From assembly GCA_020724025.1 (NCBI GenBank), contig DYHU01000160.1, forward strand, positions 1-8,371: 8,371 nt of DNA, read 5' to 3'. Within the stretch, counting starts at the first letter, position 1. The number at the start of each line of letters is the position of its first letter. The stretch is from Syntrophorhabdus sp. GTDB taxonomy: Bacteria > Desulfobacterota > BSN033 > UBA1163. The notes under the pieces were generated by a model. The model had not been told where the DNA came from. It made no database searches and worked only from the letters and a program-made list of their open reading frames with translations. A program made the position numbers and the translations under genes. Of this stretch, positions 29 through 8,290 are shown in pieces.

Positions 29-298
29 TTATTCAAGCGCCCATTTCTTCAACCGCTCATAATCCGCCGACCCACAGATCCATTTGTCGGTCTTTTTGTT
101 AAAAAAGAATGGAACGCCGCCACAATAGCCTTTGTCATATTCTCTCATCAGTTTGGCATTGGCCTCATTATGCCAGACCTCAAGCTTCGCCACCTGAACC
201 CCCACCTCATCCTCCAATCTCTCCACGAGAGATTCCACCTGATGGCAGTGGGGTCACTCCGCACCCGTGAATTCCAACAAATAGGATTCCTCTGCCAT
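29..298 (-). CDS. Thioredoxin-like selenoprotein candidate (UGA read as selenocysteine)
   Basis: A standard gene caller would start this ORF at the GTG at 238 and lose the active site. Reading upstream in the same frame, codon 15 is TGA (256-254) and the frame stays open to an ATG at 298. That ATG has a strong Shine-Dalgarno GGGAGG 7 nt upstream, while the GTG has none. The 89-residue product begins MAEESYLLEFTGAE, then U15, then PHC18HQ. This is a thioredoxin-fold beta strand followed by a UxxC redox motif where relatives have CxxC. A GGVP stretch with P63 fits the cis-proline loop of the fold, and C59 and C75 are extra cysteines. There is no signal peptide, so the protein is probably cytoplasmic. 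It should be a thiol/selenol oxidoreductase, but the partner is unknown. A SECIS-like stem-loop follows the UGA within the coding sequence. It lies 146 bp downstream of the GH57 gene on the same strand. The alternative is a recent nonsense mutation, which the preserved motif and hairpin make less likely. No selA/B/C/D gene is in the window. Confidence 0.8.
200..253 (-). promoter_or_regulatory. SECIS-like stem-loop downstream of the in-frame UGA
   Basis: On the minus strand, starting right after the UGA (256-254), three nested helices can be drawn. CCCCAC (253-248) pairs with GTGGGG (205-200). CATC (244-241) pairs with GATG (211-208). AATCTCTC (234-227) pairs perfectly with GAGAGATT (223-216), closing a GTG loop (226-224). 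The apical loop starts 27 nt after the UGA and its first base is G, with U next. Bacterial SECIS elements are expected to have an apical loop about 16-37 nt from the UGA with a G among the first loop bases, to be bound by SelB. About 18 base pairs inside a coding region at exactly this place is strong support. SelB binding itself is inferred. Confidence 0.7.
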
Positions 299-305
299 GT
301 CATTT

Positions 306-311
306 CCTCCC
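306..311 (-). promoter_or_regulatory. Ribosome binding site that fixes the selenoprotein start
   Basis: GGGAGG on the minus strand ends 7 nt before the ATG at 298. It decides the choice of this start over the downstream GTG at 238, which lacks any purine-rich leader. A second ATG at 303 is out of frame with the thioredoxin-like protein. Confidence 0.75.
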
Positions 312-444: not shown

Positions 445-2961
445 TTAAGGTCGAACCCCTATCTTCGAAAACTTCTCCATATTAAAATCCAGTTTCTCGG
501 CAAGAGTGATCAGGAGGGGGGAAAAGGGTTTCTGAACGCCATCCCCCCACCAGGACCCTTCAAGATTCTCCAAGCATTCATCCAGTATTCCATCCATCAG
601 ATCCTGAGCCTCCCCTCGGTCGAGATCGAAACCCCACTTCTTCGCCGAATCGAGGAGGGTGATCGTCTCCTGAATCATCTCTTCCTGAGCCGACAGATCA
701 GACCCTTTTGTTTTTTGGAGGAGCCTCATCTTCTCCTTGAGCATCTCATTGATGAGGAGGATGGATTCTCCTTTGTTTAGATGATATCCGTATCGCTTTG
801 CCGCATCAACAATCCTGTCAATCTCTCCCCTTTCGACTGTAGCTTTAAAATCCCTCCTCAGCTCTTTGAACTCATTTAATAATCGATTGCTGAGCGTCAC
901 TTCTGCGGCCACACGAATTTCGTAGGGTATCTCCAAACCCTCTCTGGCCAGAGCTTCAACGATCTGTTTCGTCCTATCGAAAAGATCAGCATAAATCTGA
1001 CAGTGTTCATCCAATTCTTTCTGAATGAGTCTTCTGAAGATCTCCTGCCTTTCTTCTTTAAAAAGATCTCGAATGGTGAAAACCCGATCTCCGAGGAGGG
1101 AGGTGAGGGTTTGAACCAACTCTTCTTCGCTTTTTTCGAAGCTCTTAAGACTTCTTTCTCTCAATAAGTCGAAGTCGAGTGTCTCTCTATATTCCGAGAT
1201 CCAACTCCGGAAGGCATCCTTATTCGAGGAAATCAATCCCCACAGGAATTCCTCTGATCCCGGAATAATGTCAGACATGACCCTCACCTGTCCCAGGACT
1301 AAAAGCTTGCCATCCTTTTTCATCTTTTCATAATTTATCCTCTCCACACGAAAGGAGAATATCCTCCTCTCCTTCTCCCCGCCGTCAAAAAGGGAGGAGA
1401 TGGCATAGTGGTTGACCACCTGTTCAGGGGTGATACGCTTCGGCTTCACAAGGCTCCGATAGATCTGGAGGCCATCTCCCATTTCAGGGAGGTTGCTTCG
1501 GGCCTGAGAGAGAGACTGGAGGAATCTATTTTCGATGTCCTGATCTGAAAATTCCTCTGCTAACTGGATCGCCCTCGCGGCATGCTCGAGGATGAGGACC
1601 GTCTCCAGACCTGCCAGATCGGCAAAGAACCATCCGCAACTCGTAAACATCCGCAGGGCGTGCCTCTCCATCTCCAGCAACTTGAGTCCTTTTATCCTTC
1701 CTTTCTCATCAAGACCCGAACGGCCATACTGTTCAAAGAACTGGTGAATGCTTTCAGGAGACCGGTTCATGATCACATCGAAATAACCATTTCTCGCCTC
1801 CCAGGGGTTATGAAAGATCTTCTCCCCTTCTTTTTCAAACAGGATGCCGAGCTCATCCCTCAGGAGATTGAGGGCCTCCCTTAAAGGTTTTCTCCATCTC
1901 TGATTCCATCCGGGCTTTCCGCCGGTACTGCAACCACAATCCTCCTTCCATCTCCCCACACCGTGGCCACAGCTCCATGCGCTCCCTTCCCCCTTGGGCC
2001 CTTCATCGATCTCCACTTCATACACAGGAGGAAAACGTTTCAGGAAGGCACCGTAATTGAGAACCTCAAACCCCTGGGCGGAGAATCCTTTACTTAAGGC
2101 ATAGGCCAAAGCCATCTCGCCGAATTTTTTGTGATGTCCATAGGTCTCGCCATCGGTTGAAACATGGATTAACTGAAGTCCTTTCTTCGACGGCTGATAG
2201 GCCTGGGCCAACCGTTGACAGAAACGATTCCCATCTTTCAGAAGTTCTCCGAAGGCGATCTCCTTAGAGATCACCCCATCATAGAAGAAGATGTCGATAT
2301 ACTGATCCGCCATCTTATTCCCGGAACGATCCCTGAGGAAACAGCGATAAGGCTGAGTCGTATCCACTCTTCCTTGAGAGACATCCGTCCACTTCTTGCT
2401 CGCGAAGGGTCTCGCCCTCAATGCCTGGAAAGGGCTCAGGATGAGATAGCGCATTCCGTATTTGATCAGCACCCGAAGTGTGGCGTAATTGACCGCCGTC
2501 TCCGGAAGCCACATCGCTTCAGGCTTCCGATGAAAGTGTCTTTCAAAATCGGCAATGCCCCACCGCACCTCTGTCTCTTTATCCCTCTCATTGGCCAGGG
2601 GCATGATGAGATGGTCATAGACCTGTGCGATCGCATTCCCGTGGCCAAAACGCCTGAGGCTTTCCCGGTCGGCTTCGAGGATTTTCTGATAAATCAAAGG
2701 TTTCTTTTTCTCTATCCAGGAAAGGAGCGTGGGGCCAAAATTGAAACTGAGGAAGGAGTAATTGTTGATGATATCGAGGATCTTTCCTTTGCCATCGACG
2801 ATCCGGGCAAAGGCGTTGGGCCGGTAACATTCAAAGGCAATCCGTTCATTCCAGTCATGAAAGGGCTGGGCGCTTTCCTCGAACTCAATGGCCTCCAGCC
2901 ATGGATTCTCCCTCGGCGGCTGATAGAAATGTCCGTGAATGGCGACGAATGCGTCTTTCAT
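445..2961 (-). CDS. Glycoside hydrolase family 57 protein with DUF3536-type C-terminal region
   Basis: This 838-residue protein starts at an ATG preceded by a weak AGGG 8 nt upstream. The N-terminal third carries the ordered GH57 signatures. The HGHFYQPP segment (9-16) matches the family's His/Gln-Pro first motif. GHGNAIAQVYDH (106-117) is the second region. WLPETAV (151-157) contains the expected catalytic nucleophile E154. STDGETYGHH (268-277) contains the expected acid/base D270. A cysteine-rich segment (C331, C342, C344) follows the barrel. The rest, roughly 400-838, is helical and charged and resembles the DUF3536 region found in long bacterial GH57 proteins. There is no signal peptide or membrane segment, so it should act in the cytoplasm. 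GH57 enzymes cleave or transfer alpha-glucans (amylase, branching enzyme, glucanotransferase, pullulanase types), but this subgroup's substrate cannot be read from the sequence. It follows sdhB by 221 bp and has its own promoter candidate, so it need not belong to the TCA transcript. Confidence 0.9.
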   Translation of the reverse strand: MKDAFVAIHGHFYQPPRENPWLEAIEFEESAQPFHDWNERIAFECYRPNAFARIVDGKGKILDIINNYSFLSFNFGPTLLSWIEKKKPLIYQKILEADRESLRRFGHGNAIAQVYDHLIMPLANERDKETEVRWGIADFERHFHRKPEAMWLPETAVNYATLRVLIKYGMRYLILSPFQALRARPFASKKWTDVSQGRVDTTQPYRCFLRDRSGNKMADQYIDIFFYDGVISKEIAFGELLKDGNRFCQRLAQAYQPSKKGLQLIHVSTDGETYGHHKKFGEMALAYALSKGFSAQGFEVLNYGAFLKRFPPVYEVEIDEGPKGEGSAWSCGHGVGRWKEDCGCSTGGKPGWNQRWRKPLREALNLLRDELGILFEKEGEKIFHNPWEARNGYFDVIMNRSPESIHQFFEQYGRSGLDEKGRIKGLKLLEMERHALRMFTSCGWFFADLAGLETVLILEHAARAIQLAEEFSDQDIENRFLQSLSQARSNLPEMGDGLQIYRSLVKPKRITPEQVVNHYAISSLFDGGEKERRIFSFRVERINYEKMKKDGKLLVLGQVRVMSDIIPGSEEFLWGLISSNKDAFRSWISEYRETLDFDLLRERSLKSFEKSEEELVQTLTSLLGDRVFTIRDLFKEERQEIFRRLIQKELDEHCQIYADLFDRTKQIVEALAREGLEIPYEIRVAAEVTLSNRLLNEFKELRRDFKATVERGEIDRIVDAAKRYGYHLNKGESILLINEMLKEKMRLLQKTKGSDLSAQEEMIQETITLLDSAKKWGFDLDRGEAQDLMDGILDECLENLEGSWWGDGVQKPFSPLLITLAEKLDFNMEKFSKIGVRP

Positions 2962-3182: not shown

Positions 3183-3893
3183 CTATTTTTGATGTTTGGC
3201 TTCGTAGATGCGTTTTTTAATCTGGCCGATCTGTTTGGTAACCGGAATCTCCTTGGGACAGATCTCTGTGCACTTCCATAAGGTCTGGCAGCCCCATGCC
3301 CCCTCCTTTTGATCCAACAGAGCCATCCTCTCCTCTGAACCTTCATCCCTCGAATCGAAAAGGTAACGAAAGGCCCGGACGAGGGCCGCTGGCCCGACAT
3401 AATTCTCCGTCTCTTTATTCTGGTTAATCGGGCAAGAGGCTGTGCAGCAAGCGCAGAGGATACAGCGGATCGCCTCTTCAAACTGTCGGTGTTCTTCCGG
3501 CAACTGCTTTCGCTCCTGATCAGGCGGAGGGGTTTGAGTGATCAGATAGGGTTTAATCGACTGATACTTTTCGAAAAAAGGACCGAGGTCCACCACCAGA
3601 TCCTTCACCACTTTGAAGACAGGAAGAGGTTCGATCAGGATCTCCTCTTTAAAACTCCGGACCAGCTTCTGACAGGCCAGTCCGCAGATGCCGTTGATCC
3701 TCATTCCGTCCGATCCGCACACCCCATGGCCACAGGACATCCGGAAGGATAGGGTCGGATCCTGTTCCCAGCGAATTCGGTTGAGGCAGTCAAGAAGCTG
3801 GTCCATGGGATCGGCCTCTACTTCGTAATTCTGATAGTAGGGTTTTTCATCCTTCTCCGGATCGAAACGAAAAATCCTTAGCTTGACGAGCAT
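3183..3893 (-). CDS. sdhB: Succinate dehydrogenase/fumarate reductase iron-sulfur subunit
   Basis: This 236-residue protein carries electrons between the SdhA flavin and a quinone or other partner. The N-terminal ferredoxin domain holds the [2Fe-2S] ligands C54, C59, D62 and C74 in the motif SCGHGVCGSDG...GLAC. Aspartate at the third position is as in E. coli SdhB. The C-terminal helical domain has C144, C147, C150 plus C212 for [4Fe-4S], and C154, C202, C208 for [3Fe-4S]. The GPAALVRAFRYLFDSRD segment (167-183) is characteristic of the family. After C154-P the sequence is INQNKETENY, so the tryptophan that contacts ubiquinone in the E. coli enzyme is absent. The protein ends shortly after the last cluster and has no CCG heterodisulfide-reductase-like extension. 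It lies 131 bp after sdhA. No membrane-anchor gene is adjacent. The ATG is preceded only by a weak GTGAGAG that falls in a hairpin loop. Whether the complex works as dehydrogenase or fumarate reductase cannot be told from the sequence. Confidence 0.95.
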   Translation of the reverse strand: MLVKLRIFRFDPEKDEKPYYQNYEVEADPMDQLLDCLNRIRWEQDPTLSFRMSCGHGVCGSDGMRINGICGLACQKLVRSFKEEILIEPLPVFKVVKDLVVDLGPFFEKYQSIKPYLITQTPPPDQERKQLPEEHRQFEEAIRCILCACCTASCPINQNKETENYVGPAALVRAFRYLFDSRDEGSEERMALLDQKEGAWGCQTLWKCTEICPKEIPVTKQIGQIKKRIYEAKHQK

Positions 3894-4024: not shown

Positions 4025-5749
4025 CTAATAGATCCTTGCCTCCGGTTGAAACTTCGTGATCTTGACCGGCTTATACCTTACTTCCGGACCTTTCGGGGTC
4101 TCAAAGACAAGGGTATGTTTTAAAAAGTACCGATCCGCACGCACAGGAAAGTCTTCCCGGTAGTGGGCTCCCCTGCTCTCACGCCTCTGAAGGGCGCTCA
4201 AGAGAATCACCTCCGAGAGGTCGAGCTGGTGACCTAGTTCGATGGCCTCCATCAATTCATAATTGAAAGCCTTCTTCTGATCATAAACCCCGATATCTTT
4301 ATACCGTTCTTTCAGGGACCGGATCTCTTCTATTCCCTTTTTTAAGCCCTCGTCGTTGCGGAAAACCGATCCGTATTCCATCATCACAGATTGCATCCTT
4401 TTACGGAGAGGATCGACTTTCTCTTTGCCTTTATGCTTCAGCAGGTCTTTTACTATCGATTCCATCCTTTTCATCGGTTCCGCAGAGATCGAACCATGTC
4501 CATACTGAACGATATCTCTCTTCATCGCCAGTCCGCTTCTTCTGCCAAAGACGAGCAGGTCGAGCAGGGAGTTGCAGCCCAGCCGGTTGGCGCCATGAAC
4601 CGAAATACAGGCACACTCCCCTGCCGCATACAATCCGGGGGCGAGAGATCCTTTCTCATCTCTCAGAACCCTTCCATCCACATCCGTAGGGATACCTCCC
4701 ATGATGTAATGACAGGTGGGTTGAACAGGAATGGGATCATAGACGGGATCGATGCCCAGGTAGATCCTCACAAAGGAAGCGATCTCCCAGAGCCGCTCCT
4801 CAATCTTCTCCTCTCCTAAATGGGTGAGGTCGAGATGAACATAATCCTTTCCACCGATTCCTCTTCTTTCCCGAATTTCAGTGAGAATGGCCCTTGAAAC
4901 GACATCCCTTGCGGCCAGGTCTTTCACCGTGGGAGCATACCGCTCCATAAATCGTTCGCCAAGTCTGTTTCTTAAGGTTCCGCCTTCGCCCCTTGTTGCC
5001 TCGCTCACCAGGATGCCCAGAGGATAAAGCCCTGTGGGATGAAACTGGACGAACTCCATATCCTCAAGCGGGATGCCTGACCGAAAGGCAAGGCTCATCC
5101 CATCTCCGGTCGATGCAAAACCATTGGAAGTCGTCTTATAGATTCTTCCGCATCCTCCGGTTGCCAGGAGAACGGCTTTGGCCTGAAGGAGATGGAGCCC
5201 ACCCGACGGAAGATCATAAGTCACCACCCCCACGCATTTTTTTTCATCGAAGATGAGCGAGAGGAGATAATACTCAGGATAAAATTTTACCTTTTGGCGC
5301 AAACATTGGTCGTAGAGTGTGTCAAGAACAACTCTTCCTGTTCGGTCTGCCGCATAGCAGGCCCTCTTTACAGGCTTTTTCCCATAATCCCGGGTATGGC
5401 CTCCGAAGTTTCGCTGTCCAATCTTCCCTTCCGGAGTGCGACTGAAGGGAACGCCCATATGCTCCAGTTCGTAAATGGCCCGGGGCGCATCCCTGACCAT
5501 GATCTCGATGGCATCCTGATCACCAAGGTAATCGCTCCCTTTAACCGTATCGAAGAGATGCCACTCCCAGCGGTCCTCCTCCTCATTGCCAAGAGAAGCG
5601 GTAATCCCGCCCTGAGCCGCGCCCGAATGGGAACGGTTGGGAAAGACCTTGCTCACCACAGCGACATCGGCCTGCCCCACACACTCCACGGCCGCGCGAA
5701 GTCCTGCCAGGCCCGCTCCGATGATGACGATATCATGGAAGGAGTTCAT
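4025..5749 (-). CDS. sdhA: Succinate dehydrogenase/fumarate reductase flavoprotein subunit
   Basis: This 574-residue protein holds FAD and interconverts succinate and fumarate. Numbering is from the ATG at 5749; an in-frame TTG at 5758 would add three residues but has no better leader. Visible features are the dinucleotide-binding IIGAGLAGL (G11, G13, G16), the [10 protein letters not shown] motif with H41 as the expected covalent FAD attachment, and FHPTG with H237. They also include the catalytic arginine R286 in RDVVSRA, H347 in [10 protein letters not shown], and R389 in [13 protein letters not shown]. All key residues are present, and the length is close to E. coli SdhA (588). No Shine-Dalgarno is visible before either start, because the upstream gap is taken up by CTAAAGT-type repeats. 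It sits between aconitase and sdhB on the same strand, as expected for a TCA-cycle operon. Fumarate reductase activity is equally possible, and sequence alone does not separate the two. Confidence 0.96.
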
Positions 5750-5756
5750 AATAACC

Positions 5757-5815
5757 AAAGTGATCTAAAGGGTTGAGTGAACTAAAGTGACTAAAGTGTC
5801 AAGTGAATGAAAGCT
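5757..5815. repeat. CTAAAGTG-type degenerate direct repeats, left arm
   Basis: Units such as TGATCTAAAG, TGAACTAAAG, TGACTAAAG and TGAATGAAAG, alternating with shorter GTGTCAAG-like spacers, run from the sdhA start outward on the plus strand. The same motif appears in opposite orientation at 5918-5990, so this is one arm of a symmetric element around the double hairpin at 5852-5905. Confidence 0.65.
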
Positions 5816-5917: not shown

Positions 5918-5990
5918 AGGCATTACTTAACTTTAGGCATCTTAGTCATTCGTAACTTTAGTCACTTGAAACTTTAGGCACTTTTACGGG
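5918..5990. repeat. CTAAAGT-type degenerate repeats, right arm, running into the acn 3' end
   Basis: On the minus strand the units TGCCTAAAGTTTCAAG, TGACTAAAGTTACGAA, TGACTAAGA and TGCCTAAAGT follow one another with an approximate 16-bp period. Their orientation is opposite to that of the left arm at 5757-5815. The first unit overlaps the last codons of aconitase: AGT GCC TAA supplies its final Ser, Ala and stop (5982-5974). Confidence 0.65.
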
Positions 5991-7902
5991 TATGATTGAG
6001 CAATCCTCCGGCGAGGAGGATTTCGATCTCCCACTCGTTGAGCCCATGGAGGACTTCAAACGCCCTTCCCTGCGTCACATTTTGAATGGTCAATGATCCG
6101 TTCGCCTGAAGGCGATCACGTATCTTCTCGATCCTGAGTTGATCTCCCTGTTCAATCCTCTCAAACTCTTTCGCATCCTGAAAGATCAGGGGAAGGATTC
6201 CAAAGTTGATCAGATTGCTCCGGTGGATACGGGCATACGACTTTGCAATAATAGCTCGGATGCCAACGAACATGGGAGCCAGGGCCGCATGCTCCCGGCT
6301 CGACCCCTGCCCATAATTCTCGCCTCCGACCACAAACCCACCGCCCGACTCTTTCGCTCTTCTGACAAAATTGCTATCCACCCTCTCAAAGAGATATTCC
6401 GAGATGGCCGGGATATTGGACCGGAGGGGAAGAACTTTTGCTCCGGCTGGTATGATATGGTCTGTGGTGATATGATCTCCCAACTTCAAAAGAACTTTTC
6501 CCTCCATCACATCCTCTAAAGGACCCCGCGTGGGAAGGGGTTTGATATTCGGTCCCCGCTCGATGATCACGTTTCCCGGATCCGGCGAGGGCGGAAGGAT
6601 CATGCTGTCATCGATGAAGAATCCCTTCGGCATGGGAATTCGGGCCGGCTTAGGCCCCAATTCTCTTGGGTCGGTGATGACTCCTGTTAATGCGCAGGCT
6701 GAAGCCACATAGGGACTTGCAAGGTAGACCTGATCTTCGAGTGTCCCGCTTCTACCGGGGAAATTACGATTCATCGTCCGGATCGAGATCGCATCAGAGG
6801 GAGGAGCCTGGCCCATTCCGATGCAGGGGCCGCAGGCCGCCTCCAGAATACGGGCGCCTGAGCTGATAAGGTCAGCCATCGCTCCATTCCGGGCGATCAT
6901 CTCAAAGACCTGCTTCGATCCAGGGGTGATCGTGAGGCTGACATCCGGGTGGATCTTCTTCCCTTTTAGAATCCTCGCCACACCCATCAGATCCATATAG
7001 GAAGAGTTGTTGCAACTCCCGATGCAGACCTGCTTCACCTCTCTTCCGGCTACCTCTCTTACCGGAACGACCCTGTCCGGACTGGAGGGCTGAGCGATCA
7101 GGGGTTCCAGTTTGCGGAGATCGATCTCAATGACCTGATCATATCCGGCATCGGAATCAGGCTCGAGAGGAGCCCACTCTCTCTCCCTCTTCTGAGCTCT
7201 TAGAAATTCGAGGGTCTGCTCATCGCTTGGAAAGAGAGTGGTGGTGGCTCCCAGCTCCGCTCCCAGATTGGCAATCGTCGCCCTTTCCGGGACGGAGAGC
7301 GTCTTCACACCGGGTCCTCCGAATTCAAATATCTTCCCCACGCCTCCTTTGACGGTCAAACGCCTGAGAAGCTCCAGGATGACATCCTTGGAGGAAACCC
7401 ATGGACGAAGTCGTCCTTTCAACCTCACCAGGACGATCTCCGGCATCTTGAGGTGGTAAGGCTCTCCTCCCATGGCAATGGCCACATCAAGGCCTCCTGC
7501 GCCGATGGCGATCATCCCCATGGCCCCTGCATTGGGCGTATGGCTGTCGGAGCCTAAAAGCGTCTCCCCGGGTTTTGCGAAGCGCTCCAGATGGACCTGG
7601 TGGCAGATGCCATTCCCAGGCCTTGAAAAGAGGATCCCGTACTTTGACGCAAAGGTCTGCAGAAACCGGTGATCATCCGCATTCTCAAAACCCGTCTGGA
7701 GCATATTGTGATCGACATAGCTGACAGAGAGTTTGGTCTTGACCCGCGGAATCCCCAGGGCTTCGAATTGAAGATGGGCCATCGTCCCAGTGGCGTCCTG
7801 TGTAAGGGTCTGGTCGATGGCGATGGCAACTTCGCCGTGGGCTTCAAGGGTTCCGCTCACCAGGTGAGACTCAAAAATCTTCTGGACAAGATTCTTTCCC
7901 AT
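5974..7902 (-). CDS. acn: Aconitate hydratase (short bacterial type)
   Basis: This 642-residue [4Fe-4S] enzyme interconverts citrate and isocitrate in the cytoplasm. The N-terminal domains contain DQTLTQDATGTMAHLQFEALG (start at 30) and GSDSHTPNAGAMGM (117-130, H121). The cluster cysteines are C297 in CIGSCNNSSYMDL, and C357 and C360 in EAACGPCIGMG. The C-terminal swivel domain carries DHITTDHIIPAG (476-487) and GGENYGQGSSREHAALAP (526-543) with S535 and R536 as expected substrate-binding residues. The length matches the roughly 640-aa aconitases of anaerobes and is much shorter than the roughly 900-aa AcnA or 860-aa AcnB. The 3-isopropylmalate dehydratase large subunit is excluded because the swivel domain is fused. 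The ATG has AAAGGGG 4 nt upstream. A promoter at 7983-8012 makes it the likely first gene of an acn-sdhA-sdhB transcript. Its last two codons and stop are formed by a repeat unit, so the very C-terminus may have been replaced. Confidence 0.96.
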   Translation of the reverse strand: MGKNLVQKIFESHLVSGTLEAHGEVAIAIDQTLTQDATGTMAHLQFEALGIPRVKTKLSVSYVDHNMLQTGFENADDHRFLQTFASKYGILFSRPGNGICHQVHLERFAKPGETLLGSDSHTPNAGAMGMIAIGAGGLDVAIAMGGEPYHLKMPEIVLVRLKGRLRPWVSSKDVILELLRRLTVKGGVGKIFEFGGPGVKTLSVPERATIANLGAELGATTTLFPSDEQTLEFLRAQKREREWAPLEPDSDAGYDQVIEIDLRKLEPLIAQPSSPDRVVPVREVAGREVKQVCIGSCNNSSYMDLMGVARILKGKKIHPDVSLTITPGSKQVFEMIARNGAMADLISSGARILEAACGPCIGMGQAPPSDAISIRTMNRNFPGRSGTLEDQVYLASPYVASACALTGVITDPRELGPKPARIPMPKGFFIDDSMILPPSPDPGNVIIERGPNIKPLPTRGPLEDVMEGKVLLKLGDHITTDHIIPAGAKVLPLRSNIPAISEYLFERVDSNFVRRAKESGGGFVVGGENYGQGSSREHAALAPMFVGIRAIIAKSYARIHRSNLINFGILPLIFQDAKEFERIEQGDQLRIEKIRDRLQANGSLTIQNVTQGRAFEVLHGLNEWEIEILLAGGLLNHTRKSA

Positions 7903-8255: not shown

Positions 8256-8290
8256 ATTCCGAAATCCGCAATCCGAATTCCGCATTTGGA
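8256..8290. repeat. 7-bp tandem repeat, second copy
   Basis: Units ATTCCGA (8256), AATCCGC (8263), AATCCGA (8270) and ATTCCGC (8277) are followed by a decayed ATTTGGA (8284). The stretch from 8263 aligns with positions 1-27 with only a few differences and in the same orientation. It lies between the plus-strand terminator and the partial gene at the right edge. Confidence 0.8.

Follow-up and report, generated by a model that had tools for sequence, protein, structure and literature searches.

A thioredoxin-fold gene with an in-frame UGA in Syntrophorhabdus: a probable selenoprotein with a genomic link to pyruvate dehydrogenase in its relatives

Near one end of contig DYHU01000160.1 of Syntrophorhabdus sp., an 8,371-nucleotide stretch that was analysed at its full length (the window), a short reading frame carries TGA at its fifteenth codon, where thioredoxin-like relatives have the first cysteine of a CxxC motif. 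The locus raises two questions: is this UGA a stop or a codon for selenocysteine (Sec), and, if Sec is inserted, with which partner would so small a redox protein work? A preliminary description, made from the DNA letters and a program-made list of open reading frames, had placed a missed selenoprotein at positions 29 to 298; these coordinates are correct, and the strand, which it left unstated, is minus. Read from 298 to 29 with TGA as Sec, the gene encodes 89 residues, MAEESYLLEFTGAE-U-PHCHQ..., and our re-reading confirms the TGA at 256-254 as codon 15, giving U-P-H-C. The start also stands as described, with GGGAGG (311-306) located 7 nt ahead of the ATG at 298, and the 69-residue default call from GTG 238 is present as the same ORF in the program-made list. 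As had been suggested, that call removes the active site: judged by the predicted structure, the truncated form would lack the first strand and both active-site residues. The features of the gene are the following.

29..298, minus strand: candidate Sec-thioredoxin gene, 89 codons plus stop TAA (31-29), with the TGA read through
254..256, minus strand: in-frame TGA, codon 15, putatively read as selenocysteine, U15 of U-P-H-C (TGA in 13/13 Sec genes versus TGC/TGT in 22/22 Cys genes)
306..311, minus strand: Shine-Dalgarno-like GGGAGG; GGAGG-like sites are also seen in relatives
29..238, minus strand: 69-residue ORF from GTG 238, the truncated form expected from ordinary gene calling (program ORF list)
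216..234, minus strand: SECIS-like hairpin, 8-bp stem AAUCUCUC/GAGAGAUU, loop GUG, the loop starting 27 nt past the UGA

A contig scan of genomes gave 26 loci; TGA stands at codon 15 in all 11 whose records are titled Thermodesulfobacteriota, Deltaproteobacteria or Syntrophaceae, and TGC or TGT in all 15 that come from DPANN archaea (Aenigmatarchaeota, Woesearchaeota, Micrarchaeota, Parvarchaeota). Whole-genome searches of the order to which genome G001 belongs located the gene in 12 of 17 genomes, each time with TGA (12/12); across the class of that order it is present in 13 of 23 genomes, the thirteenth (G038) having a Cys codon. A draw of 395 genomes from the phylum gave 17 matches, of which 15 are clear: eight with TGA, all in the order of G001, and seven with a Cys codon. 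The two weak partial matches (G186, G306) were left out of the relative counts. The resulting DNA-level set comprises 13 Sec genes (12 relatives and the window) and 22 Cys genes, and codon 15 is TGA, never another stop, in 13/13 of the Sec genes. In all 12 relatives in the order of G001 an in-frame ATG lies 14-16 codons 5' of the TGA and is preceded by a GGAGG-like site; L040 and L046 have a second in-frame ATG 5' of the TGA. Since the same TGA is found in 12 relatives, a sequencing error for TGC or TGT, one of the outcomes that the preliminary description had allowed for, is very unlikely.

In the protein database we examined 192 distinct relatives among those listed, from 120 of 299 and 120 of 287 matches. 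Among those listed, 117 are 65-74 residues long, that is, they start past the TGA, and P0135 also starts past it but has a C-terminal extension; in 118 of the 192 the active site is thus missing because gene calling started past the UGA. The 74 full-length relatives among those listed carry Cys at the Sec column in 73 cases and Trp in one (P0071), and the expectation that homologs would have Cys at this column is borne out both here and in the 22/22 other loci at the DNA level. P0071 has EWPDC instead of ECxxC, and its first redox residue is missing. A tree of 148 rows and 90 columns, whose bootstrap had not settled, was used only for one unstarred fork (support 87/81), which sets apart a group of 55 nested in a Cys family; the group holds the 13 Sec genes, 40 truncated proteins (taken from 110 of 69 residues) and the full-length Cys proteins P0003 and P0004. 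The most economical reading of this poorly resolved tree would be a single switch from Cys to Sec and a later reversal. As Cys forms inside the Sec clade, P0003 and P0004 are possible Sec-to-Cys reversals.

Default gene calling takes the UGA as a real stop, in which case the 69-residue ORF or nothing would be made and the codons upstream would be a remnant or a leader. The stretch ahead of the UGA, which is conserved in frame, argues against this. Codons 4-14 show a mean dN of 0.043 and a mean dS of 1.15 (dN/dS about 0.04; 24 of 78 pairs computable), codons 30-89 a mean dN of 0.047 and a mean dS of 1.71 (32 of 78 pairs computable), and all seven invariant residues of codons 4-14 vary in their synonymous codons. 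The comparison shows that the codons ahead of the TGA evolve as coding sequence, with purifying selection apparent on both sides of the UGA; in codons 4-14 this is as predicted by translation through the UGA.

Beyond the UGA, all 13 Sec genes have a SECIS-like hairpin whose loop, GUG (GUU in one), starts 27 nt past the UGA and sits on a stem of 6-8 contiguous base pairs, while at the hairpin's place none of the 22 Cys genes exceeds 5 bp (stem of at least 6 bp in 0/22). The bacterial SECIS (bSECIS) model, as given in PMC13188914, has a loop of 3-9 nt with G in the first two loop positions, an upper stem of 4-16 bp, a distance of 16-37 nt from the UGA and a minimum free energy of at most -7.5 kcal/mol. 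The window hairpin lies within these limits, with its GUG loop, 8 bp, 27 nt and -8.7 kcal/mol when folded alone, as the centroid. Codon choice in this region is unusual: codon 24 is CTC in 13/13 Sec genes, and elsewhere in the same genes CTC makes up 3 of 74 Leu codons. For each gene, the chance that randomly chosen synonymous codons form such a stem is 0.01-0.05. The mean dS of codons 22-29 is 0.46 (77 of 78 pairs), and the freezing of synonymous third bases is confined to the hairpin. One stem pair is C-G in ten genes, U-A in two and U-G in one; the next pair outwards is A-U in six, G-C in one and G-U in one, and is unpaired in five. Pairing reaches 93.3% in the true register versus 36-63% in slid registers. 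Two of five covariation measures are weak, being equalled by 65 and 63 of 500 shuffles. The 54-nt region does not fold more stably than its dinucleotide-shuffled versions (z -0.13), shuffling synonymous codons across the whole region gives p 0.33 for the window, and Rfam at gathering score has no match in the window. As the folding energy is ordinary, the hairpin argument rests on the conservation of the hairpin, for which the closely related Sec genes are not independent. The frozen third bases, the use of TGA and no other stop in 13/13, and a truncated product stripped of its active site all speak against a real stop, which we regard as hardly credible.

We looked for the selenocysteine machinery in the genomes of the relatives. 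Those with a Sec gene have selA in 12, selB in 11, tRNA-Sec in 10 and selD (cut-off E<=1e-30) in 10 of the 12 genomes, and all four in 7/12; below cut-off were selB in G008, tRNA-Sec in G003 and G009, where the best tRNA matches are tRNA-Ser, and selD in G002 and G011. All nine tRNA-Sec genes that were read carry a UCA anticodon and G73. Among the archaeal Cys genomes, none of the 15 has selB or tRNA-Sec over cut-off. The seven bacterial Cys genomes have selB in 7, selA in 5, tRNA-Sec in 6 and selD in 5, so the machinery alone does not predict the Sec form. The selD genes of the 12 Sec genomes themselves have one in-frame TGA in 12/12 matches, and the best hairpin at the 12 selD loci read has 7-10 bp and G as the first loop base and lies 20-21 nt past the TGA (at L070 it is tied with another at 27 nt). 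At the level of sequence, this TGA with its hairpin offers a positive control, within the relatives' genomes, for reading UGA as Sec. The selD TGA (L060-L071) occurs in two sequence contexts, KKAG-U-A and RTCG-U-A, both of which are present in G001 and G028.

The same evidence bears on the idea that a selC*-type tRNA-Cys, served by its own SelB*, inserts cysteine at the UGA, giving an ordinary CxxC protein. A system of this kind, a second SelB with a tRNA-Sec-like tRNA, is described for some Deltaproteobacteria in PMC7609411. Cys is the residue in other relatives, and such a system is found in the same order, where G030 and G032 have a second selB beside a tRNA-Sec-like gene with anticodon GCA and U73. 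These two genomes, however, are without the Sec-thioredoxin gene, and the 12 genomes that have it yielded, at the cut-offs used, neither a second selB (E<=1e-60) nor a second tRNA-Sec-like match (E<=1e-9); the UCA anticodon and G73 of their tRNA-Sec genes and the presence of selA in 12/12 likewise point to Sec. Cysteine decoding at codon 15 is, on this evidence, very improbable. The tRNA-Sec-like genes of G030 (L072, 3098-3189) and G032 (L073, 2060-2151), with 56 bits to RF01852, are called tRNA-Cys(GCA) by ARAGORN and resemble the selC*/selB* system of PMC7609411. With Sec as the preferred reading of the UGA, we infer from the comparative data that insertion at codon 15 is very likely. The original proposal of a missed thioredoxin-like UxxC selenoprotein accordingly gains support, of a comparative kind, from the conserved TGA, from Cys in other relatives and from selB and tRNA-Sec in relatives' genomes.

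The protein is predicted to have a thioredoxin fold (AlphaFold and fold search), with the redox motif placed after the first strand and a cis-Pro-like Pro in the predicted structure. In profile searches the protein (P0002) misses the PF00085 gathering cut-off (21.5 versus 23.5 bits), and some close full-length relatives carry a precomputed PF00085 assignment. No NCBIfam model is over cut-off, and NF040730 (SaoT), NF047660 (HUIPC motif) and NF045500 (GOS_C) have no match to P0002 at E<=0.001. A sequence search of solved structures returned nothing better than E 0.06, and PHROGs gave no match for the protein. C59, C75 and W42-H43 are invariant in the alignment. In each of the 51 aligned proteins, C59 and C75 lie on either side of the Pro63 strand region, and they might form a second redox or metal site. 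The gene very probably encodes a thioredoxin-fold selenoprotein with thioredoxin-like chemistry. At codon 15, SelB with Sec-tRNA-Sec would decode the UGA as selenocysteine under the guidance of the hairpin that lies 27 nt further on. The fold and motif imply exchange chemistry at U15-C18, in which U15-P-H-C18 would act like a thioredoxin CxxC, Sec serving as the attacking selenolate and Cys18 as the resolving thiol.

The gene neighbourhood of the relatives suggests a partner. A gene for pyruvate dehydrogenase E1-alpha lies within 2.5 kb of the thioredoxin gene in 30 of 34 relatives (12/12 Sec, 6/7 bacterial Cys and 12/15 archaeal Cys). At 27 loci its start is no more than 1.3 kb downstream on the same strand, and in L015 it is 2.4 kb downstream; in L012 and L014 E1-alpha lies upstream on the other strand. 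There is no E1-alpha nearby in L021, L023, L024 and L078, and three small archaeal genomes (G021, G023, G024) have no E1-alpha at E<=1e-20. All 12 Sec relatives have a UbiA-type prenyltransferase upstream and E1-alpha downstream, L010 with a 203-residue ORF between UbiA and the gene; E1-beta is present in 11/12 and E2 in 10/12, L001 and L008 ending too early for E2. The E1-alpha of L006 matches TIGR03181, pyruvate dehydrogenase, over cut-off. In four archaeal loci (L017, L020, L021, L025) a member of a lipoyl synthase cluster is directly 3' of the gene, and the L020 member scores over cut-off as lipA. In the phylum draw, 68 of 395 genomes have E1-alpha (E<=1e-70), and these include all 15 that hold a clear relative, a co-occurrence with a hypergeometric probability of 9e-13 when kinship is ignored; 53 of the 68 are without the gene. 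Within the order of G001, where G006's own E1-alpha was the query, identity to it is 78% or more in 12/12 genomes with the gene, and the best E1-alpha match in the five genomes without the gene reaches only E 1.9e-53.

The window itself has 28 bases 3' of the gene and ends short of any E1-alpha position, and the link was counted in relatives. Where 12/12 Sec relatives have the UbiA prenyltransferase, the window gene has a GH57/DUF3536 gene upstream, followed by further neighbours.

445-2961, minus strand: GH57/DUF3536 protein, upstream neighbour
3183-3893, minus strand: SdhB, succinate dehydrogenase/fumarate reductase iron-sulfur subunit, upstream neighbour
4025-5758, minus strand: SdhA, succinate dehydrogenase/fumarate reductase flavoprotein subunit, upstream neighbour
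5974-7902, minus strand: aconitase, upstream neighbour

Copies of a repeat, ATTTCGGATTGCGGATT, are found at both window ends (1-24, 8263-8279; 3 matches versus 0.01 expected by chance), and a sequence resembling this repeat seems to follow the gene in some relatives.

The neighbourhood could also be read in a less specific way: the protein would be a selenoprotein but a general-purpose thioredoxin, adjacent to pyruvate dehydrogenase through shared gene-order ancestry or co-expression. The 12 Sec loci have one inherited arrangement, the window's upstream side differs from that of the relatives, and the 4/34 loci with no E1-alpha nearby, together with its absence at the above threshold from G021, G023 and G024, agree with such a role. 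The link nevertheless turns up repeatedly in bacteria and in DPANN archaea, amid differing flanking genes, lipoyl synthase directly follows the gene in the four archaeal loci, and the five genomes of the order that are without this E1-alpha do not have the gene either; we therefore consider a general-purpose role unlikely, if still a serious competitor. Genomic context makes the pyruvate dehydrogenase complex the most likely partner, and we would call this partnership probable. The protein might take part in thiol-disulfide exchange with lipoyl groups or with a redox-sensitive subunit cysteine; lipoyl chemistry in particular is a tentative suggestion. Taken as a whole, a selenoprotein with thioredoxin-like chemistry that has pyruvate dehydrogenase as its partner is a reasonably likely description of this gene. 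More speculatively, the unnamed bacterial and DPANN thioredoxin family could serve pyruvate dehydrogenase as a dedicated regulator or redox subunit, exchanging electrons with its lipoyl groups, and could have become a selenoenzyme in one bacterial order, coupling selenium to pyruvate oxidation. The recurrent bacterial and archaeal link assigns an otherwise generic small thioredoxin a concrete partner that can be tested, and it invites the question whether thiol or selenol groups control pyruvate oxidation in these organisms.

AhpD and Ohr/OsmC have folds that differ from that of a thioredoxin-family protein. These small thiol proteins draw electrons from lipoylated enzymes (PMC8945050) and offer a precedent for lipoyl-dependent electron transfer. 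A literature search, incomplete and with subscription papers mostly outside it, found no description that connects pyruvate dehydrogenase or lipoyl groups with a thioredoxin or a selenoprotein, and the words pyruvate dehydrogenase and lipoyl are absent from the main text of PMC13188914. Table 1 of that paper, in its accessible form, has no entry that can be equated with this Sec-thioredoxin subfamily; members may have been filed under its broad 'Thioredoxin' entry. The table names the SaoT and HUIPC-motif selenoproteins thioredoxin-like, and SaoT (NF040730), the HUIPC-motif family (NF047660) and GOS_C (NF045500) have UxxC in common with the window protein. A further comparison is with the bacterial Sec-thioredoxin listed there as 'Thioredoxin (Trx), PF00085, UxxC' (representative WP_010956703.1), which shares the thioredoxin fold, UxxC and a UGA with a bacterial SECIS. 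From this entry, as described in the table, the window family is set apart by several features: the window protein is short, at 89 residues, scores below the PF00085 cut-off, and has C59, C75 and W42-H43 and the link to pyruvate dehydrogenase. UxxC Sec-thioredoxins were thus already known, and it is the pyruvate dehydrogenase link that is new here.
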